Source: Turritopsis dohrnii (lineage: Eukaryota; Cnidaria; Hydrozoa; Anthoathecata; Oceaniidae). Taken from it: a DNA stretch of 64,000 nt. Under the pieces are notes generated by a model, which saw only the letters and a list, made by a program, of their open reading frames with translations, was not told where the DNA came from and made no database searches. The stretch's first letter is position 1, and the number at the start of each line of letters is the position of its first letter. Of this stretch, positions 19,716 through 62,955 are shown in pieces. The stretch is taken from the NCBI GenBank assembly GCA_027922465.2, contig BQMF02000002.1:1798001-1862000 (forward strand), in the 5' to 3' direction. The position numbers were made by a program, and so were the translations under genes.

Positions 19716-22700
19716 ATGAGTGCCTTTCATAACGAAGATGACACAAGTACAGAAGTAACTGCTCTTCTGAATCATCGACCGATAATGTCGGCTGCAGATG
19801 ACAATGGTGTGATAAATGCTGATTACACCAGGGAAAGTCCAAATAAGGTATATATATATAGTTAACATATAACTCCTTTTTAATGAAAAATGTCACCAAG
19901 ATAGGAATAAGTTCTAGTGATTTCAGTTTCAGAGGGAAGCAAGTTCAGGATGTTTATATCCATATATGTTTATGGATGTCAATTAGGTATCCCAGAATCT
20001 TACTATATACCTTTTTGACTGATGGACTTGAACCAATTTCCGATATCCAACTGTTTCTGAAGTAGAACCTTTTCTTGTACCTGGTAAACTCATAGAATTG
20101 AATCAATTAAATTTACAATTAATAAATATAATCTAAAAATATCAAACGTTATGATGGTGATAGATGGTTATGAAATAAAAAATATGTTAATGGGTCTTTA
20201 ACAAATGTCTAACACAGCTCTTAAATCCTGACTACCTTCAAGTCTAGACAAAGATTCAAAAACAGTAATTTTACCTTTTGTAATAGGTAGGGTTATGGAG
20301 CCGTTTGAGAAACAGAAGAGGTAACAACGAAGACCAAAACAGACTGCAAACGCCAACACCCAGTGAACAGAACTTGAATGATGCAGACCAAAATGAGGAT
20401 GATGAAGAGATATTACACTATGGTGCTAAGAGCGTATTAATGTTGATTATCCCTGTTTCAATTTGTTTGTTGGTCGTCGTGGCTACCATAACATCCGTCA
20501 CCTATTATACACAAAATGCTGGAACGTACTTGTGAGTGGCTGTTATTTTAGGATAACCCAAAATCTATTCAGAACCATTGTTGCAATGGAAGTGATCTCT
20601 GTCAATATATACGTGTAACTGAAAACTTCTGTTGACATTTTGTAGAGTTTATACACCCTTTCATGAAGAGGGAAATATATCAAGTGCAGAGAAGTTCGGA
20701 CAGGCACTCGCGAATTCCTTAATAGTTATTGGTGTTATTCTTGTTATGACTGTGTTCTTGGTTATTCTGTACAAATGCAAATGCTATAAGGTCAGTAAAA
20801 TCAAAGTTCATCTTTGTTCAGCTTTTATTATCATCAAAATGGAATGTGATCCCTATGTTTGTATCCTGCTAGCTAAGTGAATTTTTCAGTGATGTTCCTA
20901 ATTTTGAAGATTGACACTCAACCAATCTTTGAAACATTTTTAGCGTTTATCAGTGGCCAAATTTGATGAAGAATCACAGCAAAGAAGTGCTTTTATATAG
21001 AAATATAGATATTATCTCAATGAAAATGTTGTTTCAAGTGACTTTTTGATGTTTTTACCCACTGGGTTTGCTCATGCTAGGAGATTCGTTGTTTTTGTTG
21101 TATATGTAAAAGGAAGACAACCATTTAAAACAAGCAATGGAGTTCGAAAATCTTTTAACTTTGTTGTTTTAGATCATTGAAGGCTGGTTGGTGTTATCAT
21201 CTCTCATGTTGCTCTTCTTCTTCTCTTATATCTACTTCCAGTAAGTTCATAAAACAACATCAAAACATGACCTACTTGTTCCTACTTACATTTAGTAGAG
21301 TTTGTTTTAGAACTGAGGACTGTTTTTGTTTATGTATAATTAATTATTTTAAAGACAAAAACTAGTTGCGACTGGTAGCCTTGTGGTAGAGTGCTCGCTT
21401 CCTGTTCGGGAGGCCGCGGGTTCAATCCCCGACTGAGTCATGCCAGCGACTATAACAGTGTGAATCACTCCACTCTGCTTAGCACTCAGCAAGAGAGTAG
21501 GAATGATGTCTAAGGTGGTTGTCTAGTTGAGCGGTTTCTGTCATTACAGCTTCCGTAGCCCAAATGGGGGCTTTAAATGCTCTAGGACCTCCTTCGCAGG
21601 ACCCTCATTGATAACAGTACCTTAAGGAACTGAAGAGGCTATCCTGGGTAAACATTCGTAAATAAATAAATAATAAATAAATTTATGAGATAAACTGTTT
21701 AGCAAGTTCATGTTCAAAAACACTTGTTAGCAAAACTTTAGACAAGTTTAGGTACTATCAACCATAGTGTAACTAAAAGGTTAAAGACATTTAAAAAAAG
21801 TATTGAAAAAATATGTCACCCTAATTGCTTTTCGATTGTTATTCTTCTAATATGAGGAGATTAGATTTTTCTTATTTCTTCTTCAATAGGGAATTGCTAC
21901 GTGTTTCTAACGTTGCCATGGATTATATCACGGTTTCGTTAGTTATCTGGAATTTCGGAGTGGTAGGCATGATATGTATTCATTGGAAAGGACCATTATT
22001 ACTCCAACAAATTTATCTTATCCTCAGCAGTGCCTTAATGGTAGGTTTTTGTTGATGCCAAAATTTTCATGTACCCTGCAAAAATCTTTCTTGGTGCTGT
22101 TTAATACTTCTGGTGATGTGTGTCCATTCAAAATTGAATTTTCTTAATTCCATGCAGGCTTTGGTGTTTATCAAGTACCTTCCTGACTGGACATTATGGT
22201 TTATATTGGCTGCTATTTCCTTATATGGTATGGCACTATTCCTCTATTCCTCGTATGTCTTAAAATGACTGAACTTTATTGTAAATTTTTAAAAGCTTTT
22301 GAATCAGATATTCATGAGTTGTCAATCAATTTTTATTCGATCTCAAAAACCGTTAAGGGTCGGGGTTAGGGTAATGGCTAAGAAATAGCCTAGGTGTTTC
22401 CCAGTGGACGAATTTGTTAAAAACTCACTAAGCAGGAGTGCATTTCTATGGAACTATATACACTATTGAAATAAAAATGCTCTTCGTCGCATTGACTTTT
22501 TGACAATATTGCCCATTAGGTTTGTAAACTGTATGTCGTTATTCTTTGACATTTCAGATCTGTTTGCGGTATTATGTCCAAACGGACCTCTACGAATACT
22601 TGTCAACATAGCTCAAGAAAGAAACGAGCAATTGTTTCCATCGCTCATATATTCCTGTAAGTAACTCAATCCTTTTCGACTTCTGAACATGTCTTTCGGG

Positions 22701-31460: not shown

Positions 31461-34400
31461 ATGTTATTAGTGTTTTATGCAACTAAACACTTATCCTGTT
31501 CAGAGATTAAATAAATTGCAAAGATAGGAAATCCGTTAATTGACCATTGACAATTTGGAATCAAAGTCTGTAATTATATACTTGTTGTAAGGTAACACAA
31601 AGGCACGTTTTACATTTGGAAAAAAAAATAAAAAAACAAACAAATTAGCTTATTGACCAAATTGGCAAAGAAGCTATCGCCGATATAAGGCAAGAGACCC
31701 TGGGTTCGAGGTTGTATCAATAGTTATCACAAAACAATTCATAAATAGTGTTCTATTGGGTGCATCGAAGAACGGTGCATAGAGATGGACTTTGAGATAA
31801 TACTTTGTCGTGTAAATATGCCCTTACGCCAATATTTAAGGATGTCTCGTCCGTAAAACATATTTCAATTTCTTTTACCATCATTGATTACAGACACTTG
31901 GGTGGATAACTTACTGTTTGCAAATCGTCAAGATGAAGCTTTTACTTTTATTTGCATTCACTTTGTTATGTGTTCAGATGTTCAGTAAGCCAAATATTTT
32001 TTAGAAACTCGTGTCGTCCATAACATTTCTATACTTGCATTTCTGTTGCATGTTAATTTCCAAAAACACTTTTTAACTACTTTTTCGATATTTACTTGTA
32101 GACTTGAAAACTTCACAGATATCATACGTATTTCTATCAGTTGAAAGTATCTGAAACTATTGAAATCATATAATAGGGTCAATAAAGTATAATAAGTTTT
32201 TTTTGTTTATTTTCAGGTGTTTCCTGCGCTGATAGAGACTACGATGAATGGTTTAAGGATGGTATGAGGAGGCTTATTATTACTATAACGTGTTAGGTCT
32301 AGATTTCCTTAATTGAGTAGAAGCCTTTACGATATCATCCATTAACAACGAACAAGAACATCAATAAACTGTCCGAAATTTAACGTAGAGAATCATCAAT
32401 AAACAGTCCGAAATTTTAAGTAAATAAAATGCAAAAATCACATTTTTTATATGTTATAGAAATGGTCATGAAGTTTATTAAAGATGTAATGTCAAGTCGA
32501 AGTGGATATCAAAGAGGAGAGTTAAACCGTACGGTGCTCATATCTAAAGTTACAAATTACTTCAGCTTCCAAGTGCTTATATGTACCATCAATAAGAATT
32601 TTGGCCATATTTAGTATAAACAAGTTTATTTGGAGGCTGTTCTTTAATAAACCATCTCAGTTTAATAATTTAATTGTATTTTCATGACATTTATAGCCTG
32701 CTACGTCCGTGACTGTCCTTAAGGTGGTTAGAAGGTAAGTTACATCCTCTGTTTGTTCTGTGCAGATGAATTCACAAAAAAAAAAACTCCCGATAACGCA
32801 CGTATTTACACTGAAAAACGTTCACTAGAGCAAGTTTGAGGAATGGTCAGTGGTAAGATACTTCAACTCAGACTTAACTGCAAAGTCTTCAACCCTGTAT
32901 CTTATTGAAGTTGTGATCAATGGTATATTACATAATCAGACTTAACTACAAGTCTTCAACCCTGGATTTTATTGAACTTGTATTTTATTTGATTCTCAAT
33001 GTTTCTTAAGGTAGGTCTGTCAAAACTTAAAAGTTATTAAGTGTGAACGCGTTTCGATTGCCAACACCCATTTCCAAGACACATGTTACAATGGCATTGA
33101 CCGAATATTCATATTTAATGGAGGTGTATCACGCATAATTAACAAGTTCTCTTTTAATTCGAGATCAATGGCATCTCATTGGAGTAATTCTTTTGATCTC
33201 GAATGTCAATGCCTTTGTACTTATTCAATAAACATAATTATTTTCTTATCCGCTAATTATTCGTTACGCTGTATGGTTCATTCCATATCTAACATTCAAT
33301 ATTGCAAAATATATACTTCTTGAAAATGGGTGTTGGCATCTGAAACACGTTGACACATCGTTGTTTTTTAATTTTACTAATCGTAAAAAAGTGTCTCTCG
33401 CCTCCTCCACGTTGTTTTATGCGGACATAAGAAGACGATGACCGTTAGAAAAAACGAAATGTATCACTCTCTAAAATAAAAGTGGGATGCACTAACGCGA
33501 TTATTATTATAAGATAAATATTGTTTTTAGTATTTCTTTTTTTAAATATTTTGGGACGAAGAGCCATGTTGTATATATGGAGATGTCCTATTTTCATCTT
33601 GGAAATAAACAATTATTATTGTTATTATTATCATCATTTCAGTCATCAAACAAGCACCAATATAAGAATTTTTGTTTTTTGTTGATTAACTTATTCAAGT
33701 ATTTCCTACTTACACACTTTATATACCTATTTGTTTCAATTTAGACTCTGGACATCTGAAGGAAACTGGATACGATTATGAATTGCAAACTTATATTTTA
33801 ACATTTTATTCGTTATATAATTTTTATTTTAGTATTGTTTATTCGGTTTGTCAATAATGAGTGGCATTATTTTTAATAGTCTTATTCAGAAAGTTACTCT
33901 CCAAAATTGCTTCACAACTGATATTTGCGATACATTTGTCATTCTCATTATTTTCAGCAGCCGCATTAAATAAAATGTATTGCACTGAAACACTTTTACA
34001 AGTCATATTTTGTTTTCACTAAGTGTTGTTGTTGTTGTTATTGTTGTTTTTGTTTGTGGTGTTTTTATTATTGTTGCTGTAGATCTCTGACTGGATCAAG
34101 ATCGAATAGTGAGATATGTAAACCTTATGAATGAGTAATTAAAAATTTGCACGATACATAAAGGACAATGAAATAAATGCTTCCTTTGTCTTTGAATCCA
34201 ACGTCTGATCTCCTGATAAACTGTTAGAGAAATCTCTCTAAACATCTCTTTGACTATATTGATATTACTCTAGAGACAATAACGTCAATAGTATATATGG
34301 TTTGTTTATTACTCTTTAAAGTCGTCAAAAGTATTTCCAGTGCTCTTCAGGGACACAATGATTGAATGGGATAAGATTTATCGAATTAACGATTGTAGGG

Positions 34401-36066
34401 CGGCTGTTTTTAAGGAAAGAATTAAAAATAATCTTGCAGGAGACTTTAGATTTCCTAATAGCTACCAAATTTCAGCTGTCTCTTAAATACATTTTTTCAA
34501 TTCCGAATATTTTGTCATCTGTTATATCAATCGTTCATGGAAAAGCTGCCACTGCTTTATTTAATTTCGAAATTTCATTAAGAAAAACAACTTTTGTTGG
34601 CTTTTGGACAAACAATTTCTCCATAGTTTACATGAACCCGTTAACAAATTGGGACAATTAAGGCCAAATATGGACGAATTTTTAGAGTTTTCCAATTTTT
34701 TGCAATTCCAGTTGCGCACAAAAAACAAATGAAGTTGCTGAATATACACACATGCATGACGCCATACATACTTTTTCGGCTTTGTTTACTTTTCGTATTC
34801 AATATTTTGCTTAATTATCGTTAAAAATCAAATCAGGTGGTTTTCTTTATAATTATACACACTATCATTATTCAATGAGATAGTTTTCTACCTTTGTAAC
34901 TTTTCATACATTCCAACATCTCACATTCACAATAGAATTTGATCGCTATTCAATTTTGTTTACAAAAGCGATGGAAGAAGAAAAAATCTTTAAATGTGAT
35001 TTTCTCTGAAAGTAATAATCATCAAGCGATGACCAACATTTAAAAAGTTCCAACTCCCCTTGTGAACGAGATATAACCATGCGTTTTTTCTTCATTTTGT
35101 TCAGTTGGCCTTTGCGCAAAAACGTTTGCCACATATTTTGAAAAGAATCAAAATTCGCACCGTGAGGGAGAGTTGCAGTTAAAAAATCAATGAGTTTTAA
35201 AAAAAACTGTGGCAAACATTTTTGGACAAATGATCATGGATTTCAAAAGTGCAATTTGTTTGAAGGAAAAGTGTAATGGAGGGGAGTTGGAACTTTTTAA
35301 TTCAATGCGTTCTAAATTTTACTTTTTTTCTTCTAATTCCTGTCCTTTTCATTTTTAATAAACAAAATATGGCTCATTAGACAGATAATTAAATAAGGAT
35401 TCAGAAAATGTATACTTTTGATAAGAAAAAATCAACACATTTCAAATTAGCTATCAGGGAAAAACTGAAATCATGCTTAGGAGGGTATGGACTATCCTTA
35501 AAATCATTGTCATGCATTTTGAGACAAATATTGTCGAAATTAGTTATGCAGCTGTAAGGCACGTTTGAAGTGATCTTGGCCAGCAGCTTTTTGTTTTTAT
35601 TGATGGTCATAGGTTACATTACGATTATTAAATCCTGTAGTATTTCTTGCTATTGTTAATTTCGGAAATTTTGGAATATTTGTAAAATCATTCAAAATCG
35701 TAAACCTAACCCTAGAAATTGTGAAAAGTTACAGCTTCTGCAAGTATTGTGGTCCAAAACATTTTATTACAAATTGAATTTTCCAATGTAATTCAATAAA
35801 TTGATCTATAGACAGACTGAGAATAATAGATAAAGTAAAACAAATGTCTTAAGGATGATTTAACATAAAAGACGGGATTTTGGATTTAAATCTTTTGTGA
35901 ACATGGCTCCATGTAGAAAGCTGATTACGTATGAAGGAGTGTGTTATAAGTATATAATTATAGTTTATAAGCCAAGCATATAGTTTATATCCCACAAAAA
36001 CATAACTGGGCTAATTAAATTTTCTTTGAACTTCGTCATATTCTGTCCCAGCAGTGTTCTATGCCA
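31461..36066 (+). repeat. Tandem unit 1 of the peptide-gene array
   Basis: First of three direct repeats. Units start at ATGTTATTAGTG (31461, 36067, 41653), and each start codon of the peptide gene lies exactly 472 bases further on. Unit 1 is about 4.6 kb. It lacks the SINE of unit 2 and most of the inverted-repeat element that units 2 and 3 carry. It contains diverged sequence near 33150-33250. Confidence 0.9.
31933..32722 (+). pseudogene. Small secreted-peptide gene, copy 1, splice donor deleted
   Basis: Exon 1 (31933-31984) encodes a hydrophobic Leu-rich signal peptide. Exon 2 (32217-32261) encodes a short acidic segment with an early Cys and a DEWFKD word. Exon 3 (from 32460) encodes a basic, Ser/Arg-rich middle part. 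In copies 2 and 3 exon 3 ends in GTGC|GTAAGT, but here the ten bases GTAAGTAAAA are missing after 32537, so the frame runs through to a stop at 32612-32614. The would-be last exon (32697-32722) reads C-Y-V-R-D-C-P and stop if entered in the phase used by the other copies. Either the gene is dead or it makes a protein with a different tail. Function unknown; venom, antimicrobial and signalling peptides all have this architecture. Confidence 0.7.
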
Positions 36067-36538
36067 ATGTTATTAGTGTTTTATGCAACTAAACACTTAT
36101 CCTGTTCAGAGATTAAATAAATTCCAAAGATAGAAAATCCGTTAATTGACCATTGACAATTTGGAATCAAAGTCTGTAATTATATATTTGTTGTAAGGTA
36201 ACACAAAGGCACGTTTTACATTTGGAAAAAAAAAAATTAAAAAAAAACAAATTAGCTTATTGACCAAATTGGCAAAGAAGCTATCGCTGATATGAGGCAA
36301 GAGACCCTGGGTTCGAGGTTGTATCAATAGTTGTCACAAAATAATTCATCAATAGTGTTCTGTTGGGTGCATCGAAGACTAGTGCACAGAGATGGACTTT
36401 GAGATAATGTTTCTCGTGTAATCATACCCTTACACCAATATTTAAGGATGTCTCGTCCGTAAAACATATTTCAATTTCTTTTGCCATCATTGATTACAGA
36501 CACTTGGGTGGATAACTTACTGTTTGCAAATCGTCAAG

Positions 36539-37697
36539 ATGAAGGTTTTACTTTTATTCGCATTCACTTTGTTATGTGTTCAGATGTTCAGTAAGTCAAG
36601 TATTTTTTAGAAACTCGTGTCGTCCATAACATTTCTATACTTGCATTTCTGTTGCGTGTTAATTCCACGCAAACACTTTTTAAATACTTTTTGATATTTA
36701 CTTGTAGATCTAAAAACCTTGCAGATATCATACGTATTTTTATGTGTTGAAAGTATCTGAAACTATTGAAATCATATAATGTGGGCAATAACGTATAATA
36801 AGTTTTATTTGTTTATCTTTAGGTGTTTCCTGTGCTGATAGCGATTCTGACGAATGGTTTAAGGATGGTATGAGGAGACTTATTTCCTTATTTTTTGTTT
36901 TAGCTGCTTGATAAATTATTGAAAATAAACAACTTCAGATTCTCCTTCCAATGTTTTGAGTAGTTGAGTAGGAACCTTTAACATCGAACAAGAACATCAA
37001 CATCAACAAACCGTCCGAAATTTAACTTTTAAATTTTGACCGATGCAAAAATCTCATGTTTTTATGTGTTATTAGAAATGGTCATGAAATTTATCAAAGA
37101 TGTGATGTCAAGTCGAAGTGGATATCAAAGAGGAGAGAAAACCCGTACAGTGCGTAAGTAAAATCATACCTAAAATTACAAATTACTTCATCTTCCTAAT
37201 GGTTATGTGCACCATCAATAAGAATTTTGGCTATATTTAGTGTAAACAAGTTTATTTGGAGGCTGTTCTCTAATAAACCAAGTAGTTGAGTAGGAACCTT
37301 TAACATCGAACAAGAACATCAACATCAACAAACCGCCCGAAATTTAACTTTTAAATTTTGACCGATGCAAAAATCACCTGTTTTTATGTGTTATTAGAAA
37401 TGGTCATGAAATTTATCAAAGATGTGATGTCAAGTCGAAGTGGATATCAAAGAGGAGAGAAAACCCGTACAGTGTGTAAGTAAAATCATACCTAAAATTA
37501 CAAATTACTTCATCTTCCTAATGCTTATGTGAACCATCAATAAGAATTCTGGCTATATTTAGTATAAAAAAGTTTATTTGGAGGCTGTTCTCTAATAAAC
37601 CATTTCAGTTTAATAATTTGATTGTATTTTTATGACATTTATAGCTCCCTGCCTCTATCAAATTATTACCTGTTATGGTAATAACTTGGCTACCTAA
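36539..37697 (+). CDS. Small secreted-peptide gene, copy 2, with duplicated exon 3
   Basis: The exons are 36539-36590 (signal peptide), 36823-36867 (acidic linker), 37076-37153 (basic middle exon), a second copy of that exon at 37398-37475, and 37645-37697 (Cys-loop exon). All have good GT-AG sites. The middle exon is 78 bp, a multiple of three, and starts and ends in phase 1, so either copy alone (75 residues) or both together (101 residues) stays in frame. The last exon has two Cys separated by six residues (C-x6-C), preceded by Pro, then a short tail. After the stop, GGTAAGTT at 37710-37717 looks like a donor leading to a 3' UTR exon at 39027. The mature product and its activity are unknown. 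Confidence 0.8.
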
Positions 37698-38426
37698 AGG
37701 TTAAAAGGTAAGTTACATCCTCTATTTATTCTGTGCAAATGAATTCACAAACCAAACTCCCGACAACGCATGTATTTACACTAACTGACTGAAAAACGTT
37801 TCACTAGAGCAAGTTTGATGAATGATCAATGGTATATTACATAATCAGAATTAGCTACACGTCTTCAACCCTGTATTTTATTGAACTTGTATTTTATTTG
37901 ATTCTCAATGTTTCTAAGTTAGGTCTGTTAGAACTTAAAAATTACTAAGTGTCAACGCGTTTCGATTGCCAACGCCCATTTTCAAGACACATATTTTACA
38001 ACGGCATTGACCGAATATTCGTATTTAATAGAGGCGTATCACGCATAATTAGCAAGCTCTCTTTTAATTCGAGATCAATGGCATCTAATATGTTTTTTTA
38101 TGAGCTAATTATTCGTTACGCTGTATGATTCATTCCATATCTACCATTCAACATTGTAAAATAAATATCTTGAAATTGGGTGTTGGCATCTAGAACGAGT
38201 TGACACATCGTTGTTTTTTAATTGATTCTAACTTTGCTGTAAGAACTTCAGTCTTACCTTTTTTTTGAAACGGCATTTGAAGATTAAGCTTTTGGATGCA
38301 TGTGCAAAACAATAGAGTACATAAAAATCCAGAGGATAGAGGATAAAAATCAAATTAATCATTTATCAATTTAACCATTTCATCTCTTTTTTTACTATCT
38401 TTGATGTTTTATAGTTTTTTTATCTG

Positions 38427-38670
38427 ATAAACCACGTAGAGGCGAGAGACACTTTTTTTTACGATTAGTATAATAGCACGTGGCATTTGGCATCAGTTAT
38501 TTTTATGATCACCGGGAATCATTGCATTACATCCCCAATCGAATGCGACGTTTTTGGGGAAATATCTCGAGAACCAATAGGGATAACTGACGGGAAATCA
38601 TTGCATCCCTCGGTACTGAGTGCTTTTATACTAATCGTAAAAAAGTGTCTCTCGCCTCCACGTTGTTTTA
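38427..38670. mobile_element. Short inverted-repeat element in unit 2
   Basis: ACGTAGAGGCGAGAGACACT at 38434 is repeated in reverse complement at the right end (AGTGTCTCTCGCCTCCACGT, ending about 38662), with AT-rich extensions including ACGATTAGTATAA, so the arms span about 45 bp. It is a MITE-like element; no clear target duplication was defined. Related copies lie at 43732-43972 and, left half only, at 62786-62955. Confidence 0.7.
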
Positions 38671-39934
38671 CGCGGACATAAGAAGACGATGACCGTTAGA
38701 AAAAAACGAAATCTATCACTCTCTAAAATAAAAAAGGGATGCACTAACGCGATTATTATTATAAGATAAATATTGTTTTTAGTATTTTTTTTTTTTAAAT
38801 ATTTTGGGACGAAGAGCCATGTTGTATAATGGAGATGTCATCTTGGAAATAAACAATTATTATTGTTAATATTATCATCATTTCAGTCATCAAACAAGCA
38901 CCAATATAAGAATTTTTAATTTTTGTTGATTAACTTATTCAAGTATTTCCCACTTACACACCTACACAAATTTCGACACAAATTTCGACCTCTAAATCCG
39001 CCACTGACATATTTGTTTCAATTTAGACTCCGGACATCTGAAGGAAACTGGATACGATTATGAATTGCAAACTTATATTTTAACATTTTATTCGTTATAT
39101 AATTTTTTTTAGTATTGTTTATTCGGTTTGTCAATAATGAGTGGCATTATTTTTAATAGTCTTATTCAGAAAGTTACTCTCCAAAATTGCTACACAACTG
39201 ATATTTGCGATACATTTGTCACTCTCATTATTTTCAGCAGCCGCATTAAATAAAATGTATTGCACTGAAACACTTTTACAAGTCATATTTTGTTTTCACT
39301 AAGTGTTGTTGTTGTTGTTATTGTTGTTTTTGTTTGTGGTGTTTTTATTATTGTTGCTGTAGATCTCTGACTGGATCAAGATCGAATATAGTGAGATATG
39401 TAAACCTTATCAATGAGTAATTAAAAATTTGCACAATACATAAAGGACAATGAAATAAATGCTACCTTTGTCTTTGAATCCAACGTCTGATCTCCTGATA
39501 AACTGTTAGAGAAATCTCTCTAAACATCTCTTTGACTATATTGATATTACTCTAGAGACAATAACGTCAATAGTAATTATGGTTTAATTATTACTCTTTA
39601 AAGTCGTCAAAAGTATTTCCACTGCTCTTCAGGGACACAATGATTGAATGGGATAAGATTTATCGAATTAACGATTGTAGGGCGGCTGTTTTTAAGGAAA
39701 GAATTAAAAATAATCTTGCAGGAGACTTTAGATTTCCTAATAGGTACCAAATTTCAGTTGTCTCTTAAATACATATTTTCAATTCCGAATATTTTGTCAT
39801 CTGTTATATCAATTGTTGATGGAAAAGCTGCGGTTGCTTTATTTAATTTCGAAATTTTATTAAGAAAAACAACTTTTGTTGGCTTTTGGACAAACAATTT
39901 CTCCATAGTTTACATGAACCGGTTAACAAAATGG

Positions 39935-40245
39935 TAGCCTTGTGGTAGAGTGCTCACTTCTTGTTCGGGAGGTCGCGGGTTCAATCCCCGACCGAGTCAT
40001 GCCAGCGACTATAAGAGTGTGAATCACTCCTCTCTGCTTAGCACTCAGCAAGAGAGTAGGAATGGTGTCTAGGGTAGTTGTCTAGTTGAGCACTTTCTGT
40101 CATTGCAGCTTCCGTAGCCCAAATGGGGGCTTTAAATGCTCTAGGGCCTCCTTCGCAGGACCCTCATTGATAACAGTACCTTAAGGAACTGAAGAGGCTA
40201 TCCTGGGTAAACATTCCTAAATAAATATATAAATAAATAAATAGA
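39935..40245 (+). mobile_element. tRNA-derived SINE, absent from unit 1
   Basis: Same family as 21367-21683, with A box TGGTAGAGTGCTC, B box GGTTCAATCCCC and an (ATAAATAA)n tail. Unit 1 has the empty site near 34648-34656 (ACAAATTGGGACAATTAAGG), so the insertion came after the unit duplication. Unit 3 has a deletion over this position and is not informative. Confidence 0.9.
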
Positions 40246-42124
40246 CAATTAAGGCCAAATATGGACGAATTTTTAGAGTTTTCCAATTTTTTGCAATTCC
40301 AGTTGCGCACAAAGAACAAATGAAGTTGCTGAATGTACGCACATGCATGACGCCATACATACTTTTCCGGCTTTGTTTACTTTTCGTATTCAATATTTTG
40401 CTTTATTATCGTTAAAAATCAAACCAGGTGGTTTTCTTTATAATTATACACACTATCATTATTCAATGAGATAGTTTTCTACCTTTGTAACTTTTAATAC
40501 ATTCCAACATCTCACATTCACAATAGAATTTGATCGCTATTCAATTTTGTTTACACAAGCGATGGAAGAAGAAAAAATCTTTAAATGTGATTTTCTCTGA
40601 AAGTAATTTTAGCTTGATGACCAACATTTAAAGAGTTCCAACTCCCCTTGTGAACGAGATATAACCATGCGGTTTTTTTCATTTTCTTCAGTTGGCCTTT
40701 GCGCAAAAAAGTTTGCCGCATATTTTGAAAAGAATCAAAATTCGTACCGTGAGGGAGAGTTGCAGTTAAAAAATCAATGAGTTTTAAAAAAAACTGTGGC
40801 AATCATTTTTGGACAATTGATCATGGATTTCAAAAGTGCAATTTGTTTGAAGAAAAAGTGTAATGGAGGGGAGTCGGAACTTTTTAATTCAATGCGTTCT
40901 AAATTTTACTTTTTTTCTTCTAATTCCTGTCCTTTTCATTTTTAATAAACAAAATATGGCTCATTAGACAGATAATTAAATAAGGATTCAGAAAATGTAT
41001 ACTTTTGATAAGAAAAAATCAACACATTTCAAATTAGCTATCAGGGAAAAACTGAAATCATGCTTAGGAGGGTATGGACTATCCTTAAAATCATTGTCAT
41101 GCATTTTGAGACAAATATTGTCGAAATTAGTTATGCAGCTGTAAGGCACGTTTGAAGTGATCTTGGCCAGCAGCTTTTTGTTTTTATTGATGGTCATAGG
41201 TTACATTACGATTATTAAATCCTGTAGTATTTCTTGCTATTGTTAATTTCGGAAATTTTGGAATATTTGTAAAATCATTCAAAATCGTAAACCTAACCCT
41301 AGAAATTGTGAAAAGTTACAGCTTCTGCAAGTATTGTGGTCCAACACTTTTTATTACAAATTGAATTTTCCAATGTAATTCAATAAATTGATCTATAGAC
41401 AGACTGAGAATAATAGATAAAGTAAAACAAATGTCTTAAGGATGATTAACATAAAAGACGGGATTTTGGATTTAAATCTTTTGTGAACATGGCTCCATGT
41501 AGAAAGCTGATTACGTATGAAGGAGTGTGTTGTAAGTATATAATTATAGTTTATAAGCCAAGCATATAGTTTATATCCCACAAAAACATAACTGGGCTAA
41601 TTAAATTTTCTTTGAACTTCGTCATATTCTGTCCCAGCAGTGTTCTATGCCAATGTTATTAGTGTTTTATGCAACTAAACACTTATCCTGTTCAGAGATT
41701 AAATAAATTCCAAAGATAGAAAATCCGTTAATTGACCATTGACAATTTGGAATCAAAGTCTGTAATTATATACTTGTTTTAAGGTAACACAAAGGCACGT
41801 TTTACATTTGGAAAAAAAAAATTAAAAAAAAAACAAATTAGCTTATTGACCAAATTGGCAAAAAAGCTATCGCTGATATGAGGCAAGAGACCCTGGGTTC
41901 GAGGTTGTATCAATAGTTGTCACAAAATAATTCATCAATAGTGTTCTGTTGGGTACATCGAAGACTAGTGCACAGAGATGGACTTTGAGATAATGTTTCT
42001 CGTGTAAACATACCCTTACGCCAATATTTAAGGATGTCTCGTCCATAAAACATATTTCAATTTCTTTTGCCATCATTGATTACAGACACTTTGGTGGATA
42101 ACTTACTGTTTGCAAATCGTCAAG

Positions 42125-42949
42125 ATGAAGCTTTTACTTTTATTCGCATTCACTTTGTTATGTGTTCAGATGTTCAGTAAGTCAAGTATTTTTTAGAAAC
42201 TCGTGTCGTCCATAACATTTCTATACTTGCATTTCTGTTGCGTGTTAATTCCACGCAAACACTTTTTAAATACTTTTTCGATATTTACTTGTAGATCTAA
42301 AAACCTTGCAGATATCATACGTATTTCTATCAGTTGAAAGTATCTGAAACTATTGAAATCATACATTGTGGGCAATAACGTATAATAAGTTTTATTTGTT
42401 TATCTTTAGGTGTTTCCTGTGCTGATAGCGACTACGACGAATGGTTTAAGGATGGTATGAGGAGACTTATTTCCTTATTTTTTGTTTTAGCTGCTTGATA
42501 AATTATTGAAAATAAACAACTTCAGATTCTCCTTCCAATGTTTTGAGTAGTTGAGTAGGAACCTTTAACATCGAACAAGAACATCAACATCAACAAACCG
42601 TCCGAAATTAACTTTTAAATTTTGACCAATGCAAAAATTACCTGTTTTTATGTGTTATTAGAAATGGTCATGAAATTTATCAAAGATGTGATGTCAAGTC
42701 GAAGTGGATATCAAAGAGGAGAGAAAACCCGTACAGTGCGTAAGTAAAATCATACCTAAAATTACAAATTACTTCATCTTCCTAATGCTTATGTGCACCA
42801 TCAATAAGAATTTTGGCTAGTTTTAGTATAAACAAGTTTATTTGGAGGCTGTTCTCTAATAAACCATTTCAGTTTAATGATTTGATTGTATTTTTATGAC
42901 ATTTATAGCTCCCTGCTACTTAAACGTTGTTACCTGTTATGGTAAATAA
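42125..42949 (+). CDS. Small secreted-peptide gene, copy 3, possible amidated end
   Basis: The exons are 42125-42176, 42410-42454, 42662-42739 and 42909-42949, giving 71 residues. Signal peptide, acidic linker and basic middle exon are almost identical to copy 2. The Cys-loop exon keeps C-x6-C but has different residues inside the loop. One inserted A compared with copy 2 creates an earlier stop, so the protein ends Cys-Tyr-Gly-Lys. Gly-Lys at a C-terminus is the classic precursor signal for peptide amidation. A GGTAAGTT donor follows at about 42971, with a UTR acceptor at 44038. Toxin, antimicrobial or neuropeptide roles cannot be separated from sequence alone. Confidence 0.8.
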
Positions 42950-43731
42950 CTTGGCTACCTAAAGGTTAAAAGGTAAGTTACATCCTCTATTTATTCTGTG
43001 CAAATGAATTCACAAACCAAACTCCCGACAACGCATGTATTTACACTAACTGACTGAAAAACGTTTCACTAGAGCAAGTTTGATGAATGATCAATGGTAT
43101 ATTACATAATCAGAATTAGCTACACGTCTTCAACCCTGTATTTTATTGAACTTGTATTTTATTTGATTCTCAATGTTTCTAAGTTAGGTCTGTTAGAACT
43201 TAAAAATTACTAAGTGTCAACGCGTTTCGATTGCCAACGCCCATTTTCAAGACACATATTTTACAACGGCATTGACAACAATATTGAAAACAATACCAAA
43301 TAAATAAATAAATTGACCGAATATTCGTATTTAATAGAGGCGTATCACGCATAATTAGCAAGCTCTCTTTTAATTCGAGATCAATGGCATCTAATATGTT
43401 TTTTTATGAGCTAATTATTCGTTACGCTGTATGATTCATTCCATATCTACCATTCAACATTGTAAAATAAATATCTTGAAATTGGGTGTTGGCATCTAGA
43501 ACGAGTTGACACATCGTTGTTTTTTAATTGATTCTAACTTTGCTGTAAGAACTTCAGACTTACCTTTTTTTTGAAACGGCATTTGAAGATTAAGCTTTTG
43601 GATGCATGTGCAAAACAATAGAGTACATAAAAATCCAGAGGATAGAGGATAAAAATCAAATTAATCATTCATCAATTTAACCATTTCATCTCTTTTTTTA
43701 CTCTCTTTGATGTTTTATAGTTTTTTATCTG

Positions 43732-43972
43732 ATAAACCACGTAGAAGCGAGAGACACTTTTTTTACGATTAGTATAACAGCACGTGGCATTTGGCATCAG
43801 TTATTTTTATGATCACCGGGAATCATTGCATTACATCCCCAATCGAATGCGAAGTTTTTGGGGAAATATCTCGGGAACTAATAGGGATAACTGACGGGAA
43901 ATCATTGCATCCCTCGGTACTGAGTGCTTTTATACTAATCGTAAAAAAGTGTCTCTCGCCTCCACGTTGTTT
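43732..43972. mobile_element. Short inverted-repeat element in unit 3
   Basis: Counterpart of 38427-38670 at the same position in the unit, so it was present before units 2 and 3 separated. Left arm CACGTAGAAGCGAGAGACAC, right arm GTGTCTCTCGCCTCCACG. Confidence 0.7.
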
Positions 43973-45120
43973 TACGCGGACATAAGAAGACGATGACCGT
44001 TAGAAAAATCCGCCACTGATCTATTTGTTTCAATTTAGACTCTGGACATCTGAAGGAAACTGGATACGATTATGAATTGCAAACTTATATTTTAACATTT
44101 TATTCGTTATATAATTTTTTTTAGTATTGTTTATTCGGTTTGTCAATAATGAGTGGCATTATTTTTAATAGTCTTATTCAGAAAGTTACTCTCCAAAATT
44201 GCTACACAACTGATATTTGCGATACATTTGTCATTCTCATTATTTTCAGCAGCCGCATTAAATAAAATGTATTGCACTGAAACACTTTTACAAGTCATAT
44301 TTTGTTTTCACTAAGTGTTTTTGTTGTTGTTATTATTATTTTTGCTTGTGGTGTTTTTATTATTGTTGCTGTAGATCTCTGACTGGATCAAGATCGAACA
44401 GTGAGATATGTAAACCTTATGAATGAGTAATTGAAAATTTGCACAATACATAAAGGACAATGAAATAAATGCTTCCTTGTCTTTGAATCCAACGTCTGAT
44501 CATCTCCTGATAAACTGTTAGAGAAATCTCTCTAAACATCTCTTTGACTATATTGATATTACTCTAGAGACAATAGTAATTATGGTTTGTTTGTGGTTTG
44601 TTTATTACTCTTTAAATAAAGTCGTCAAAAGTATTTCCAGTACTCTTCAGGGACACAATGATTGAATGGGATAAGATTTATCGAATTAACGATTGTAGGG
44701 CGGCTGTTTTTAAGGAAAGAATTAAAAATAATCTTGCAGGAGACTTTAGATTTAGAATTAGCACCGTGAGGGAGAGTTGCAGTTAAAAAATCAATGAGTT
44801 TTAAAAAAAACTGTGGCAAACATTTTTGGACAAATGATCATGGATTTCAAAAGTGCAATTTGTTTGAAGAAAAAGTGCAATGGAGGGGAGTTGGAACTTT
44901 TTAATTCAATGCGTTCTAAATTGTACTTTTTTTCTTCTAATTCCTGTCCTTTTCATTTTTAATAAACAAAATATGGCTCATTAGACAGATAATTAAATAA
45001 GGAGTCATAAGTCATATTCCGTCCCAGCGGTGTTCTACGTCAATGAGTTTTGGAGTGGGGAAGCACTTAACATCCATTATTAGAAAGATCAACACCGCTA
45101 TTTAGCAAAATTTTTATATA

Positions 45121-45946
45121 CAGTGTGTCCCAGAGAATTTTGGTCTGAGATTTTATCAAGCTATAACTTTTCACACATATGTCAGATTTTAGAGATTTTT
45201 ACATCATTCGATAGCATTTCTTTCAAGGATTTTAAAAACCTATATCTTAAATAATTTAGTCCAACACCTTTGCAGTAAAAAGGATTTCTTTAAACTGTCA
45301 CGGTCATTAACTCCTTAATGGTTAATAAAAGTAAGTTTTCACGGGCGATTATTATTTTGTTTATTAAGAACATGTCGTGGTGTTATTGAACACACTAAAA
45401 TTATAATCTCATCACAAAGTTAAAAATCGTGAGACGGGGGCTTCTACAAAATTTTTTGACATCATATGAGCAATCTATAGTTGCTACAAAAACTTTTCTC
45501 CACTGAGATCCAGAGTCTATCAGAGTTAAGAAGTAAAATTGTTGACGCAGCAAATAATCTTAGACAAAATCAAAAATTTATTCGCCACTCATTATGACAG
45601 AAAGAGCAAATCGTGTCCAGAGAAACGGGGGACATGTTGGGACAGCTTAAAGTTTTGTTTTTAATGACTCTTGTGTTTTATAGTCACTTCACTTTGTTTT
45701 TGATTATGACCTTTGATAGGTGTTAATGAAAAACGTGTTAATTAACCGTTAAGAAGATAATTGGATTTTTTCATGGTAAAATCCTTAATTGTTCCCAGAC
45801 TAAAAGGTTTTGGAGAACAAAATGTATATTTTTAAAATCTATGAATAAAATCCCATCGAATGGTGTAAAAATTGCTGAAATCTGACATATGTGTGAAAAG
45901 TTATGAGCTGTTAAAATCTCAGACCGAAATTCTCTGGGACACACTG
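45121..45946. mobile_element. Tc1/mariner-like MITE, TA-flanked
   Basis: CAGTGTGTCCCAGAGAATTT at 45121 and its complement ending at 45946 head inverted repeats of about 120 bp, very similar throughout. TA dinucleotides flank both ends (45119-45120, 45947-45948). A CAGTGTGTCCC start with TA target fits mariner-derived MITEs. No transposase frame exists in the 826 bp. Confidence 0.85.
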
Positions 45947-46418
45947 TACACAAAATCACTTCAAAAGTGATATAAATTATTTTAATACAAAAACTAATTA
46001 TGTATTCAATGCATTACCTACCAGGGTGTGACCTAAAGAATCTGAAAGAAATCCAAATCGTAAACGTTGTTAATGACGTTGCCATAATGAGCACTGACTT
46101 AAGTCAGTTTCGATTAAATGGAATAATACTACATTGCACACATATAATCTTTCTTACTGCCCCTGGATGTCTGCCTGGATGTCTGTCCCTTCTTAATTGT
46201 CAAATACAGACTGTGACAATTTTATATTTAACGAATTTGATTTATGATTAAACATAATTCTGGGTGCTTATTGATGGGCATTTTACATATGTGCTTATTA
46301 TTGTCAGGATTGTCTCATAAATATTCAACATAACGAACATGCACGATTGGTGGCATAGCATTCTGTTTAGGTGATTCGTGTATATATGTTGCGACCAAAT
46401 CGATAAACCTTACAAATA

Positions 46419-46918
46419 CCGTATTTCCTCTTTTTAGCGCCCCCCTCTTTTAAGCGCCCCCCTCTAATAAGCGCCCCTGTTAATCCAAAAATAACTTTAT
46501 AAGCGCCCCCCTCTAATAAGCGCCCGGGCAGTTATTAAAGTTACAATGTCAGAGTCAAAATCCTAGATAAGCGCCCCAAAACTAGCCAAAACAGTCAGCC
46601 AACTGCTTGTAGATCTTTTCAACGAGACATGGAAGATGATCCAAACATTCTAATAGACTCCGATTAAGAAGAAGATGGCGACATAGATATAGAGTTGGAA
46701 AACATTACATGAACCATACCTGATATTTCTTCTGTTTTCTGTACATAGTTTTTATAGAAAATAATAAAGGTGGAAATAAGTATTTATTTTTAACACCTCT
46801 CACAATTTTTTGTAGGGGTTTTTTGAAATAATTTTATAAGCGCCCCCCTCCAATAAGCGCCCTCCTAATTTTCGAAAAAATTTTATAAGCGCCCGGGCGC
46901 TTAATAGAGGAAATACGG
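46419..46918. mobile_element. TA-flanked TIR element with AAGCGCCC subterminal repeats
   Basis: The ends are CCGTATTTCCTCT at 46419 and AGAGGAAATACGG ending at 46918, flanked by TA. AAGCGCCC-type words occur at least seven times near both ends, a likely transposase-binding array. The middle (about 46625-46710) reads as an acidic tail ending EEDGDIDIELENIT, interrupted by one stop, possibly the remnant of a transposase C-terminus. A pogo-like class is inferred from the TA target. Confidence 0.8.
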
Positions 46919-46920
46919 TA

Positions 46921-49900
46921 AGTCAATTTCTGTTAAGTTGTATTCAATTGCTTTTTCCAGACGAGGTACTTACAAGAAATAAAATATTTAGGGTGATGAG
47001 AGTCTTCTTGTTGGCTGGGCCATAACATGCCGTTAAAATAGAAATTGGAGAAAGAACTCAGTTAAAGTTCAAAATGTTGATCAAAGGAAACTGAGCAGAG
47101 ACAACATAGAAATGTAATCAAAAAGGATAAATGCATTCAATTTGCATTACACACAAAGTAGCCCATCCTTGTGAATCAAAACTTGGTCTTGCCATACAAC
47201 GGATTATAACAGTGTGCATTTCGTTTAGAAATAAAAAGCCTTTAAAATGATAACGATAAGTCAGAAAGAAAGAAAACTGCAATATTTACGGATTAGAGTT
47301 TCGTATTTTCTTATAATCATCAGCCGTTATAAATACTCTTTCAAAAAATTCCTATTAGCAATTTGAAAGAATGCAGAAAAAACCATGACAACGACCTCAT
47401 CAAAACCGCAAATGTGTTGTGACGCTAGTTAGTTGCAAGAGAGTGAATGTATAGATTATATCCTCTAATTTGATATTTGGATCTAATCCCGTTAAGACCA
47501 TAAAGGCGAATTCCTAAGTGCCGAATAACAAAATGACTACAACGGATCACATGCACATTGTTTTCTAACGGAAGGAAATATAAAATTCAAATTCATTATA
47601 AAAACATAGAAGCAAAGAATAAATCATCGGTAAACGTTTTTAAAGAAAACCAGGTCGCCCTTACGTTTCCATAACAATTAATTAAAACCGCATTAGTTGG
47701 TTAACATTTACAGAAATCATGTGGGCAAGAACAACTATGACAACTACAAATAGATATTCGTTTTTATTTTCAGCTTCAAATCTGACTTTCCACACGTCCT
47801 TACAAGCTTACGCGTTTGGGCTAACCACACAGGTGAATTTTCGTTTCTACCAATTTAATTTCTGGTCCTGGTGACATGAAGTTTAAAAAGTTTTTGGTTC
47901 CCAAGATGCACTACGTTATAATTAAGGGTGTTAAGAGGGCGCATTGAAACGAATAACTTATTTTTTCATCTGAGTGAACTGAATCCATTAGGAATCATAT
48001 TGCATTGCAACATAATGCCGGGTGGGCCAGAAAAAACGCATCCAAATTTGGATTTGTTATAACCGGATATTGTCTTTAGATAAATAATAAATCTTTTAGA
48101 GGTAGATTCTACAAGGTAATGGGGAGAAATAGGCAAATTTTCCATGAAAAAAAAAGCAAATTCGGTTCAAAAGATAGAAGGATTTTAGGAAAAAGTCTGA
48201 AATTTCCTTTGACGTCAAAAACGTTTTTTATAAAAGTCTTTAAAACTTACCTCTTAAACTGTGCAAATATCTTATAATTTCCATACCTGTAAACAACTTA
48301 TGATATGAACAAGTTAGCGAAATAACAAAAAAATAAATTCAACCAATTCTCTAAAATAAATTTAACCAAAAACCATTTTGATACATTGACCCGCCCTTTT
48401 CATTAACAGCTTAACGTGGAACAAATTCTTTTAAAGCTTTACGAATTTCTTTAACGTTTGTTGAAACTTCGGGCCAAACTTTTTCATTCTAACAGATGAT
48501 CGACTTAATGCTTTTCAATTTCTCTTGGCGACAAATGTGTACTAGGTTTTATTTAAGCCTTTACTCACAAGACTAAATTGAATCTACTTTTTCACTCTCT
48601 TTCCTGTTTTCGTTATCGTTGCAAGTTAAACCACTGATAACGCTTTTTGTTTGTTTGTTTTCTTATTTATACTTTATTTTCTGTTGGATTTGTAAAATAT
48701 ATAGTTACAACAAAACTAATTCATTCCAACAATGTTCACGACGATCCTTTATAATGAATGCATTTCTTCTTCAAAATTTACGGAAATTTCAAATGCTATA
48801 AAGGACATGGTACATATGTAACAAGGAAATGTCGAAATCTACAACAATGAAGAGATTATCTTCGGTGTTTTTGGAGATCCGCTACGGCATACTTTCATTA
48901 TGGTTGAATCTTTTCGAAAAATATATGTGTATGAAAACGGTGCAATCGTCATCCCAAAGTGTAACCTTCTTCCAACGTTATTCACCACATAACCAATAGA
49001 GACACGATACAAAATCAAACCATGCAACATCACCAAACTCATTCAGTATACTATAGGCCGGACATGCCACTTAACTGTCGATCAATCCAAGATCACAAGA
49101 AATTCGTCAATTCTTGAAAGAAGTACTATCTGGACCAAGCTTTTGCAAAATTAACTAATTTATAAAAAAAACATTTGTTAACGTTTATACGCTCATCATA
49201 TGCACAAACACCAAATCTTTCGCATTTTGAGATGAAGGGCCATTGCAAATATGGAAAATGCGTTATTGGTATTGTTATTATTACAACGACAGTACTCGCT
49301 CGAATGAATCATGTAATTGATAAAAACAAATGTTTCCCGAGTTTACATCACTTCTTTATCAAACCTTAATATTTCAAATCTTCCTATTACATGCCCCGTT
49401 TACGAGCTATTTGTACGCAACACGCTTCCCTACCTTGTTTTTTAAGAAACGAAAGGTTAAGTTCCATCTTTATTTTAAATATGGAACGTTCTGAAAAGAA
49501 ACCTAGCTGTCCCGTTTCTCCTTTTAGATGGATATGAAAAGGAAGAGGTGAAACAGAAAATCAAAGCTTTCCGCTCTATGCTGTACGAAACAAAATGGTG
49601 TTTACCATGAAAAAAATATTTCCGCTTATCTGTTCAGTCATTACAATTGAATAAATCAGAACTAGCGGGTTTATTTTGACTACCAGCTGTCATCGACGTT
49701 TGAAATGTTCGAAGTAATAATTATAGGATCGAAATACATACAAATCAACCAATCAACCATCACTAATTAATTAATGATTATAATAATTAAAATTATCTAC
49801 GTACATGTTCGCCATCATCAAAACGTTCGCTTTTCGGAATGTCGGCAGCCATATCTCAAGAAGTTGGTATAAGATATTGTCAATATGGGTCGTTCGATCA

Positions 49901-58536: not shown

Positions 58537-58542
58537 TGTCAT

Positions 58543-61145: not shown

Positions 61146-61659
61146 TATGGCTGTCTATAGAAAAACAAATTTACATCAAAAATCATCATCACTTTTGTAG
61201 GCAGGCACATCTGCTCTCTTCAGCCGCTCAACTTTCCAGTATACAAGAACATTTGGATAAATTATAAAGTTATTTACATGCTAACATTGGAGTATGAAGT
61301 TTAAAACAAAAGAATTGTATTTCAACAATGTTATTTCCTCATTTACTCAGGCTTGTAACCATAGCTAAAGAAGTTTTATCAGAAGAAACTTGATGACTTG
61401 GCCAAACTTTAACTTTCTGTTCTTTTGTCCAAAAGGAAAAAAGTTCTCGAAAATGGAATTAATTGTCAAAAAGGAAGTTTCATTCACAGGTATAAGAAAT
61501 ATGTAAAAGAAATTTCAAATTAACACGATGGTGAGGAGATTTATCATGTCATGGACCTGATGATTTATACTTATTACTTATTCTTTAAAATCTTATCATC
61601 AAACAAATTACGAAGTTAATGTTTAAAATTAACATACAATGAACATTATGGAATATGGA
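61146..61659. other. Intergenic, upstream of the IQCJ-SCHIP1-like gene
   Basis: Probable promoter region of the minus-strand gene. No specific element recognised. Confidence 0.4.
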
Positions 61660-62600: not shown

Positions 62601-62785
62601 GTTTTTTGAAGAAAATTCATAGTTTTTAGGTTTGCTTACAAGGGTGTCTTTGAAGAGCGATATCTTCAACAGGATTCAATTTTTGAAATATATCTTATAT
62701 ATAATAGTGAATGTGTATACCACTTTTATTTTAGAGAGTGATACATTTAGTTTTAATTTACGGTCAATGTCTTCTAAGTAGCGCA

Positions 62786-62955
62786 TAAAACCACGTAGAG
62801 CGAGAGCGTTTTTATACGATTATTATAATAGTAGCACGTGCCGTGACGTCAGTTTTTTTATGATCACAGGGGAATCATTGCATTGCATCCTAATCGAACG
62901 TGATGTATTTGGAATAAATATCTCGAGAACCAATAGGGATAACTGACGTTTTTTT
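62786..62955. mobile_element. Left half of the MITE seen at 38427 and 43732
   Basis: Shared words are AACCACGTAGAG, TTTTTATGATCAC, GGGAATCATTGCATT and AACCAATAGGGATAACTGAC. The right terminal repeat is missing. Confidence 0.7.

Follow-up and report, generated by a model that had tools for sequence, protein, structure and literature searches.

A three-unit tandem array of candidate secreted-peptide genes in Turritopsis dohrnii, with a Cys-loop exon that has diverged beyond its introns between two copies

Can one short coding exon change faster than the introns on either side of it, and is selection the force that drives the change? This question is raised by a tandem array of the hydrozoan Turritopsis dohrnii, which we analyzed within a window of 64,000 nucleotides, the whole stretch of DNA under study. 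The array is real: repeat search, self-blastn and reading of the joints placed three direct units on the plus strand, at 31461..36066, 36067..41652 and 41653..45047, the last with its 3' edge at about 45042-45047 and shortened by internal deletions. The joints at 36067 and 41653 were the same over the 66 bases compared. A sequence-only reading had proposed three direct units, each with signal, linker, middle and Cys-loop exons, and this layout was borne out by the repeats, the self-blastn matches and the exon borders. The four-exon gene of that reading stands as regards the four types of coding exon, but there is a non-coding exon 5 as well, and exon 3 of copy 2 is doubled. A translated search of the window, queried with the copy 2 loop and with the exons for the signal, linker and middle parts, revealed no further copies, as only the three copies and their four exon-3 modules scored above chance level. 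In addition, a SINE-like insert lies within the array in copy 2 only.

The introns between the coding exons are in phase 1, and the borders follow GT-AG throughout the three genes, except for the exon-3 donor of copy 1. Exon-border reading placed the start codon and signal peptide (MKLLLLFAFTLLCVQMFS in copy 1) in exon 1, at 31933..31984 (phase-1 GT donor), 36539..36590 and 42125..42176 in copies 1, 2 and 3, respectively, all exons being on the plus strand. Exon 2 encodes an acidic linker (SVSCADRDYDEWFKD in copy 1, including borders) and lies at 32217..32261, 36823..36867 and 42410..42454. Exon 3 spans 42662..42739 in copy 3; in copy 2, borders, self-blastn and alignment showed exon 3a (37076..37153) and its tandem duplicate 3b (37398..37475), parts of a 322-bp tandem module (36959-37280 and 37281-37602) whose two halves differ at 9 of 322 sites. 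Both exons are phase 1-1, so that the frame is kept if both are included. In copy 1 a 10-bp deletion covers the GTAAGT of the exon-3 donor, which in copies 2 and 3 follows the base matching 32537; the donor scan showed that an in-frame weaker phase-1 donor, ACC/GTACGG at 32528, can still join the C-x4-C loop, giving an exon 3 of 32460..32528. Copy 1 may be decaying. Exon 4 carries the loop and the stop codon, and translation confirmed the earlier statement that this last coding exon differs among copies: C-x4-C in copy 1 (CYVRDC, then Pro and the stop; 32697..32734), and two different C-x6-C loops in copy 2 (CLYQIITC with tail YGNNLAT; 37645..37707) and copy 3 (CYLNVVTC with tail YGK; 42909..42972). 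Exon 5, which is non-coding, begins at an AG acceptor and was placed at 33745..33990, 39027..39270 and 44039..44285, with AATAAA at 33969, 39249 and 44261 and with predicted, approximate 3' ends.

The products resemble small secreted precursors, with a signal peptide judged by eye, a linker of net charge -5 in copies 2 and 3 and -4 in copy 1, an amphipathic stretch with a helical moment of 0.67, and a C-terminal part of net charge +4, +3 and +1 in copies 3, 2 and 1. The predicted mature peptides have one Cys pair and are non-cationic overall (net 0, -1 and -2), and the loops carry little charge. The earlier remark that no known family is recognizable holds as far as tested in a protein set, Pfam and the PDB. 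No protein sharing three 5-residue words was found in a set of 5.8 billion proteins with either a single protein or the three-copy alignment as query, a search that diverged relatives would escape; Pfam assigned 0 families to the three products; and the PDB gave no relative, two matches with E values of 0.84 and 1.5 being taken as chance. Six peptide fragments of the products had no match in the open-access papers searched, and paper searches for a hydrozoan or Hydractinia relative turned up nothing that could be matched to the array family. As for RNA genes, the window had no Rfam match at gathering score and no tRNA, and two sub-threshold matches to bacterial sRNAs within the array (E 0.033 and 0.31) were taken as chance.

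The comparison that bears most directly on the question is that between copies 2 and 3, where 57 of 2843 aligned sites are different; the count excludes everything beyond 39530, because large deletions in unit 3 make the alignment there unreliable (153/3338 for the whole alignment). Eight of these 57 differences fall within 15 nt of the loop, a hypervariable core at 37651..37665 on the plus strand of copy 2 in which 8 of 15 columns are unlike copy 3, all eight spanning only the 13 nt of 37653-37665. Such a cluster was reached in 0 of 5000 shuffles, and the next cluster held 3 differences. Put as a proportion, 8 of 24 sites differ within the loop, compared with 49 of 2815 aligned sites elsewhere (Fisher p = 9e-9), the first part of intron 4 shows 0 differences in 383 sites, and intron divergence between these copies ranges from 0 to 3.6% by segment. 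Loop divergence above that of the flanking introns is thus shown for copies 2 and 3, and to this extent the idea of a Cys-loop exon outpacing its non-coding surroundings is upheld. Exon 4 of copy 1 has diverged too far to be aligned reliably (differences at 17 of 38 aligned sites, plus gaps), but the introns of that copy are themselves divergent and one of its exon borders is damaged. Through all these changes the Cys codons TGC and TGT and the reading frame of the loop are kept in all three copies, with a Cys spacing of 4 residues in copy 1 and 6 in copies 2 and 3. Five loop codons differ between copies 2 and 3 and each difference alters the amino acid, as diversifying selection, proposed earlier, would have it, but two of the changes are conservative (Ile to Val), the whole may be one complex mutation, and selection is unproven. 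A clean comparison of the loop is possible for two copies only, and five changed codons give little power for selection. On the 3' side of the loop, a 1-nt indel between copies 2 and 3 alters and shortens the tail of copy 3.

Outside the loop, the near-identity of introns that the sequence-only reading described is true of copies 2 and 3 but fails for copy 1: there, divergence amounts to 8.6-11% in introns 1, 3 and 4 and to about 31% in intron 2, which has a replaced block. The front exons, described earlier as nearly identical, are mostly conserved, but the copy 2 and copy 3 versions of the linker exon 2 show 3 differences in 45 sites, including one Ser/Tyr change. Relative to copy 2, exon 4 of copy 1 is 27 nt shorter before the stop, in frame, and 2 nt longer after it. 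Exons 1-3 are under constraint between copies 1 and 3: dN was 0.029 and dS 0.26, and 7 of the 11 nucleotide changes were synonymous against an expected share of 0.217 (p = 0.003). This synonymous excess, together with the kept frame, led us to reject a non-coding array or a chance repeat. Introns may be an unclean neutral yardstick here, since the dS of 0.26 between copies 1 and 3 (7 changes) exceeds the intron divergence of about 0.095. Furthermore, divergence between copies 1 and 2 is patchy, at 138 of 1644 sites in the gene body and 65 of 2647 beyond it (p = 3e-18, with exon 4 and the intron 2 block 32279-32400 left out), which indicates that recombination has acted. Parts of the units have been homogenized by recombination.

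Our best explanation, to which we give about an even chance, is that an orphan secreted peptide, most likely of defense or venom type, forms a young tandem family that diversifies by loop replacement. As the sequences show, exons 1-3 encode the constrained part of the precursor, with signal peptide, acidic linker and an amphipathic and basic middle, and exon 4 encodes a C-terminal loop that keeps its two Cys codons and its frame, whereas the intervening and trailing residues are different from copy to copy. The precursor would enter the secretory pathway and be cut after the signal peptide (-SCA/D-), one disulfide would shut the loop, and the loop would be the part that binds the target. Duplication and recombination between units would homogenize the surroundings, while diversifying selection, plausible on the sequence pattern, would keep replacing the loop segment.

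A different, less likely account is that the loop differences arose by one or two events without selection, either a complex multi-nucleotide mutation or short-tract gene conversion from an unseen diverged paralogue, followed by drift, with copy 1 a pseudogene. The confinement of all eight changes to 13 nt suits it, as do the lost exon-3 donor of copy 1 and the recombination evident between copies 1 and 2. The loop also adjoins a tract in which copies 2 and 3 differ at 1 of 627 sites (28 of 1255 upstream), and from this position at the edge of a near-identical tract we infer that a recombination event ended near the loop and may have produced the change with no selection involved. A donor sequence for the loops is, however, not clearly present elsewhere in the window: no clear local template was found for the three loops, exact matches reached 11-12 nt at most, and allowing 1-2 mismatches gave a few 12-15-mers, counted without a shuffle comparison. 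At least three changes, moreover, struck the same 60-nt exon (exon 4 of copy 1, the copy 2-3 loop and the indel that follows it between the same two copies), and within the loop the frame and both Cys survived them in all copies. Far less is to be said for dead repeats whose coding signal arose by chance, which we consider very improbable: the donor loss in copy 1 would fit, but the synonymous excess in exons 1-3, the intact frames and borders of copies 2 and 3 and the in-frame length change before the exon 4 stop of copy 1 all argue against it.

Copies 2 and 3 could also be two haplotypes of one locus that the assembler set in tandem, in which case the loop difference would be an allelic polymorphism. 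Heterozygosity in marine invertebrates has a range that includes about 2%, which is the divergence of these copies. We hold this to be improbable, in view of the shared joint that links units 1-2 and units 2-3, the few differences beside it (3/701 before, copies 1-2; 2/150 after, copies 2-3), the shortening of unit 3 in its own way, and the exon-3 duplication and SINE-like insert in copy 2 alone, none of which is decisive. Another, rather unlikely, reading takes the loops as cyclic hormones or neuropeptides. The Cys-Tyr-Gly-Lys-stop end of copy 3 is shaped like an amidation signal, and the ring of copy 1 fits that of vasopressin/oxytocin; against this, the translated products lack a dibasic cleavage site ahead of the loop and copy 2 has no Gly-basic end. 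Besides, hormones usually stay conserved from copy to copy and do not diversify.

The proposed diversification by loop replacement has a known counterpart in ASSET of snake three-finger toxins, in which introns are alike between paralogues, short exon segments are replaced by unrelated ones and Cys positions are kept. In the array, an exon segment diverges beyond neighboring introns in copies 2 and 3, and the TGC...TGT pair persists in all copies with a spacing shift in copy 1. In ASSET several paralogues carry mutually unrelated segments; the window contains three copies for such a comparison. The protein is nevertheless a different one, with one disulfide loop instead of a three-finger fold, in a hydrozoan, with three copies only and a putative venom use. 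Conotoxin-type precursors are likewise composed of a conserved signal and spacer and a hypervariable C-terminal Cys part, whereas the array peptides have two Cys only, no homology to them was found and venom-gland expression is putative (PMC10501145).

Among cnidarian peptides, the Hydra AMP families arminins and periculins are similar in being small and secreted with bipartite charge and clustered paralogues and no homologue found elsewhere; bipartite charge, paralogue clusters and lineage restriction are listed among Hydra AMP features, and a complex cysteine pattern is given for most of them (PMC10945409). Unlike them, the array peptides have one Cys pair and, when mature, a net charge that is negative or close to zero, and no homology was found. 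The array copies do show a signal peptide with bipartite charge and a cluster of three tandem paralogues, and the single Cys pair falls short of the complex pattern, which lowers the weight of a defense role. Kinship to arminin, periculin or hydramacin gained no support from Pfam (0 families) or the protein set (no relative), searches that stand here in place of direct alignment to these families. If the gene works, host defense of the Hydra AMP type is the most likely, though tentative, assignment of role, signalling a weaker one, and venom and any other role are each somewhat less probable still. The Cys framework of the sea anemone SA8 and Nv1 peptides is unlike that of the array peptides. 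Their clusters share with the array a set of small multi-exon cnidarian secreted-peptide genes, and SA8 has microexons, with a second exon that is highly variable in Actinia tenebrosa (PMC10210398). The clustered SA8 genes of Telmatactis are described as highly similar, which sets them apart from the array (PMC10210398), and sea anemones are anthozoans.

The loop of copy 1 deserves separate mention, since CYVRDCP fits the vasopressin/oxytocin C1-C6 ring plus Pro7, in one of three copies, a likeness previously unremarked. Each of its residues occurs at its position in some member listed in Table 1 of a published compilation (PMC7181382). Random loops fitted lenient residue sets in 693 of 400000 cases and a strict set in 2 of 400000, and 60 simulated windows gave 0 ring fits. 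The vasopressin/oxytocin system has been reported absent from cnidarians. Unlike these peptides, the copy 1 ring is at the C-terminus of its precursor, without Gly-amide and without neurophysin, and the loops of copies 2 and 3 hold six residues (PMC7181382). Specifically, the stop follows directly after Pro7 in place of an X8-Gly9-amide tail, and in place of a peptide directly after the signal peptide followed by a neurophysin domain, the loop is encoded by the last coding exon and no Pfam domain was found. The likeness is possibly a coincidence. It is a long shot that a family exploring loops by exon-segment replacement has converged in copy 1 on this ring as a mimic, perhaps directed at bilaterian competitors or prey; that loop would still be reachable through the weak donor at 32528.

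If expressed, the array would be a hydrozoan case of a disulfide loop that changes faster than its introns. It represents a secreted-peptide family without a recognized relative, in a group whose defense peptides are often restricted to a single lineage. With one loop, three copies and aligned introns, it is also a small system in which selection may be weighed against local mutation or conversion as the source of hypervariability.

The array comprises three direct units, placed by self-comparison of the window at 31461-36066, 36067-41652 and 41653 to about 45047, and each carries one small gene with GT-AG borders and phase-1 introns throughout, the sole exception being the lost exon-3 donor of copy 1. 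Exon 1 contributes 52 nt from the ATG and the acidic linker exon 2 a further 45 nt. In copies 2 and 3, exon 3 is 78 nt long; the cysteine-loop exon, exon 4, has 63 nt in copy 2, 64 nt in copy 3 and 38 nt in copy 1. Exon 5, with AATAAA, is non-coding and lies 3' of exon 4. The products would measure 75 aa in copy 2 with one exon-3 module (26 residues more if both of its modules are spliced in), 71 aa in copy 3 and, via a weak donor, 63 aa in copy 1. Residues 1-22 look like a signal peptide ending in SCA, an end that we take to fit the -1/-3 rule. Signal-peptide removal would leave exactly two cysteines, so that the predicted mature peptide would form one disulfide loop. Its first 11 residues carry a charge of -5 in copies 2 and 3 (-4 in copy 1). 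An amphipathic stretch with a moment of 0.67 and a basic run lead up to the loop, and the net charge of the mature part is 0 in copy 3, -1 in copy 2 and -2 in copy 1.

Between copies 1 and 3, 7 of the 11 nucleotide changes in exons 1-3 are synonymous (chance share 0.217, p 0.003), and dN is low relative to dS (0.029 and 0.26 for copies 1 and 3, 0.043 and 0.35 for copies 1 and 2, 0.014 and 0.065 for copies 2 and 3), which makes it very likely that this frame encodes a protein under constraint. The dS of copies 1 and 3, resting on few changes, exceeds the intron divergence of that pair (about 0.095). Within exon 2, copies 2 and 3 are distinguished by 3 changes in 45 nt, Ser to Tyr among them, so the constant part is not fully constant. 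The sequence-only reading had proposed that the loop exon changes faster than its non-coding surroundings, and copies 2 and 3 bear this out: 57 of 2843 aligned sites differ, and 8 of these differences fall within 15 loop columns, which 0 of 5000 shuffles matched (the next cluster holds three). All five differing loop codons (LYQII in copy 2, YLNVV in copy 3) are residue-changing, two being Ile to Val. Beyond the loop, a 1-nt indel separates the two tails, YGNNLAT in copy 2 and YGK in copy 3; the copy 3 precursor thereby ends in CYGK-stop (42914-42949), an end shaped like a Gly-Lys amidation signal. Compared with copy 2, exon 4 of copy 1 is 27 nt shorter before the stop, with the frame kept, and 2 nt longer after it. 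Both Cys codons are retained. We infer that the loop frame was translated for most of copy 1's history.

The description of the introns as almost identical has to be narrowed, as copy 1 departs from copies 2 and 3 by 8.6-11% in introns 1, 3 and 4, and part of its intron 2 has been exchanged for other sequence. The sequence-only reading also missed that a 10-bp deletion removed the exon-3 donor of copy 1 and that copy 2 has two exon-3 modules. By rough weights, the best remaining phase-1 donor of copy 1, the candidate ACC|GTACGG at 32528, scores -0.32, vs 0.58 for exon 3a and copy 3, and a phase-0 candidate of similar strength, ACG|GTGCTC (-0.66), would drop the loop if used. The two modules of copy 2 differ from each other at 9 of 322 sites and from copy 3 at 8/321 and 9/321, about the same amount. 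They form a 322-bp tandem duplication (36959-37602) of phase 1-1, and both could splice in or alternate. The 3' non-coding exon (33755-33985, 39029-39258 and 44039-44268) is almost identical in the three copies, with 1 to 2 differences per 220-228 sites, in contrast to the copy 1 gene body, which is 8-10% different; this points to homogenisation or constraint.

Both inner unit joints are identical across the 66 bases compared, and an ATG is shared where the 5' and 3' unit edges meet, as expected from tandem duplication at short microhomology and subsequent unequal exchange, which we infer to be the origin of the array. Divergence along the units is uneven: copies 1 and 2 show 138 differences in 1644 gene-body sites, counted without exon 4 and the block 32279-32400, and 65 in 2647 sites beyond the gene body (p 3e-18), and copies 2 and 3 show 28 in 1255 sites as far as exon 4 and 1 in 627 directly 3' of the loop (p 2e-4). 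This patchiness indicates that recombination between units probably acted, with a tract border near the loop. At such an edge of a homogenised tract, the loop change could also have arisen without selection, by one complex mutation or by conversion, an account that we consider rather unlikely.

The loop of copy 1 with its next residue, CYVRDCP (32699-32719), fits the ring plus Pro7 of vasopressin/oxytocin (VP/OT) peptides, a comparison made post hoc, after the sequence was seen, and one that might equally have extended to other hormone families. As tabulated in PMC7181382, every residue occurs at its position in some member: Y matches vasopressin and oxytocin, V and R the earthworm peptide CFVRNCPTG, and D and P the starfish peptide CLVQDCPEG. 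Across its six frames, the window contains 94 C-x4-C loops without inner Cys, and of these only the copy 1 loop fits the lenient residue sets; 693 of 400000 random loops matched the lenient sets and 2 of 400000 the strict ones, and none of 60 simulated windows held a ring fit. C-x4-C-P itself shows no enrichment, occurring 4 times in the window against an expectation of 3.25. The ring has neither a Gly-amide tail nor a neurophysin, the fit fails in copies 2 and 3, and the copy 1 donor is damaged. PMC7523074 reports vasopressin absent from the anthozoans studied and cites other work for its absence from cnidarians, which contradicts an earlier Nematostella claim. We retain the ring as a VP/OT-like lead, albeit a most improbable one that may be coincidence.

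Elsewhere in the window (34% G+C), whose source is a hydrozoan cnidarian, a RAD9 gene at 57157-58542 (-) forms a single open frame. Among the best 120 of 514 matches, its top match has 61% identity and its best named relative is from Hydractinia symbiolongicarpus (59% identity, 100% of the query), the next named hydrozoans being Clytia hemisphaerica, with 46% (again 100% of the query), and Hydra vulgaris, with 55% over 80% of it. In an adjoining open frame (59976-61154, -), Pfam identifies a SCHIP-1 C-terminal domain along with two IQ motifs. A dispersed repeat with two copies (39932-40231 and 21373-21672, 95%), present within the array in unit 2 only, resembles a tRNA-derived SINE by eye; ARAGORN found no tRNA at either copy. 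Intron 4 of copies 2 and 3 contains a MITE-like element with inverted ends of ~50 bp (38429-38668 and 43734-43972), of which a single end is left in copy 1 and a relative lies at 62688-62948. Directly 3' of unit 3 is an element with inverted ends of ~120-128 bp (88%; 45112-45955), and another at 46415-46925 has many GCGCCCCCCTC repeats and ends that seem inverted by eye (TACCGTATTTCC ... GGAAATACGGTA). Broken frames at 71-3009 appear, by eye from translation, to be of LINE-type retrotransposon kind. Presenilin-like exons lie at 20287-20880, where PF01080 matches 20290-20535 at E 1.7e-6, short of the curated cut-off, and similar frames were seen by eye near 12.5-13.2 kb.

The searches placed the peptides in no recognised family: 5.8 billion proteins yielded no candidate homologue by a method that needs three shared five-residue words and misses diverged relatives, Pfam gave no family for any of the three products, and PDB nothing better than E 0.84 (copy 3 product only). 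The array can be likened to several known systems, with membership in none claimed. As described in PMC2474615, exon-segment exchange (ASSET) in snake three-finger toxins leaves alike introns, unlike exon segments and constant cysteines, and the array shows a pattern of this type. Conotoxins, as outlined in PMC10501145, likewise join a conserved signal and spacer to a hypervariable end. Hydra antimicrobial peptides are, in the account of PMC10945409, small, bipartite in charge, encoded by clustered paralogues and confined to a lineage; the complex cysteine pattern that it also lists for them is absent here. Sea anemone SA8 clusters are, in the cases given by PMC10210398, highly alike in one species, with a variable second exon in another. 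Our best explanation of the array gene is a diversifying defence-type peptide, and a signalling or a venom role would be only slightly less likely.
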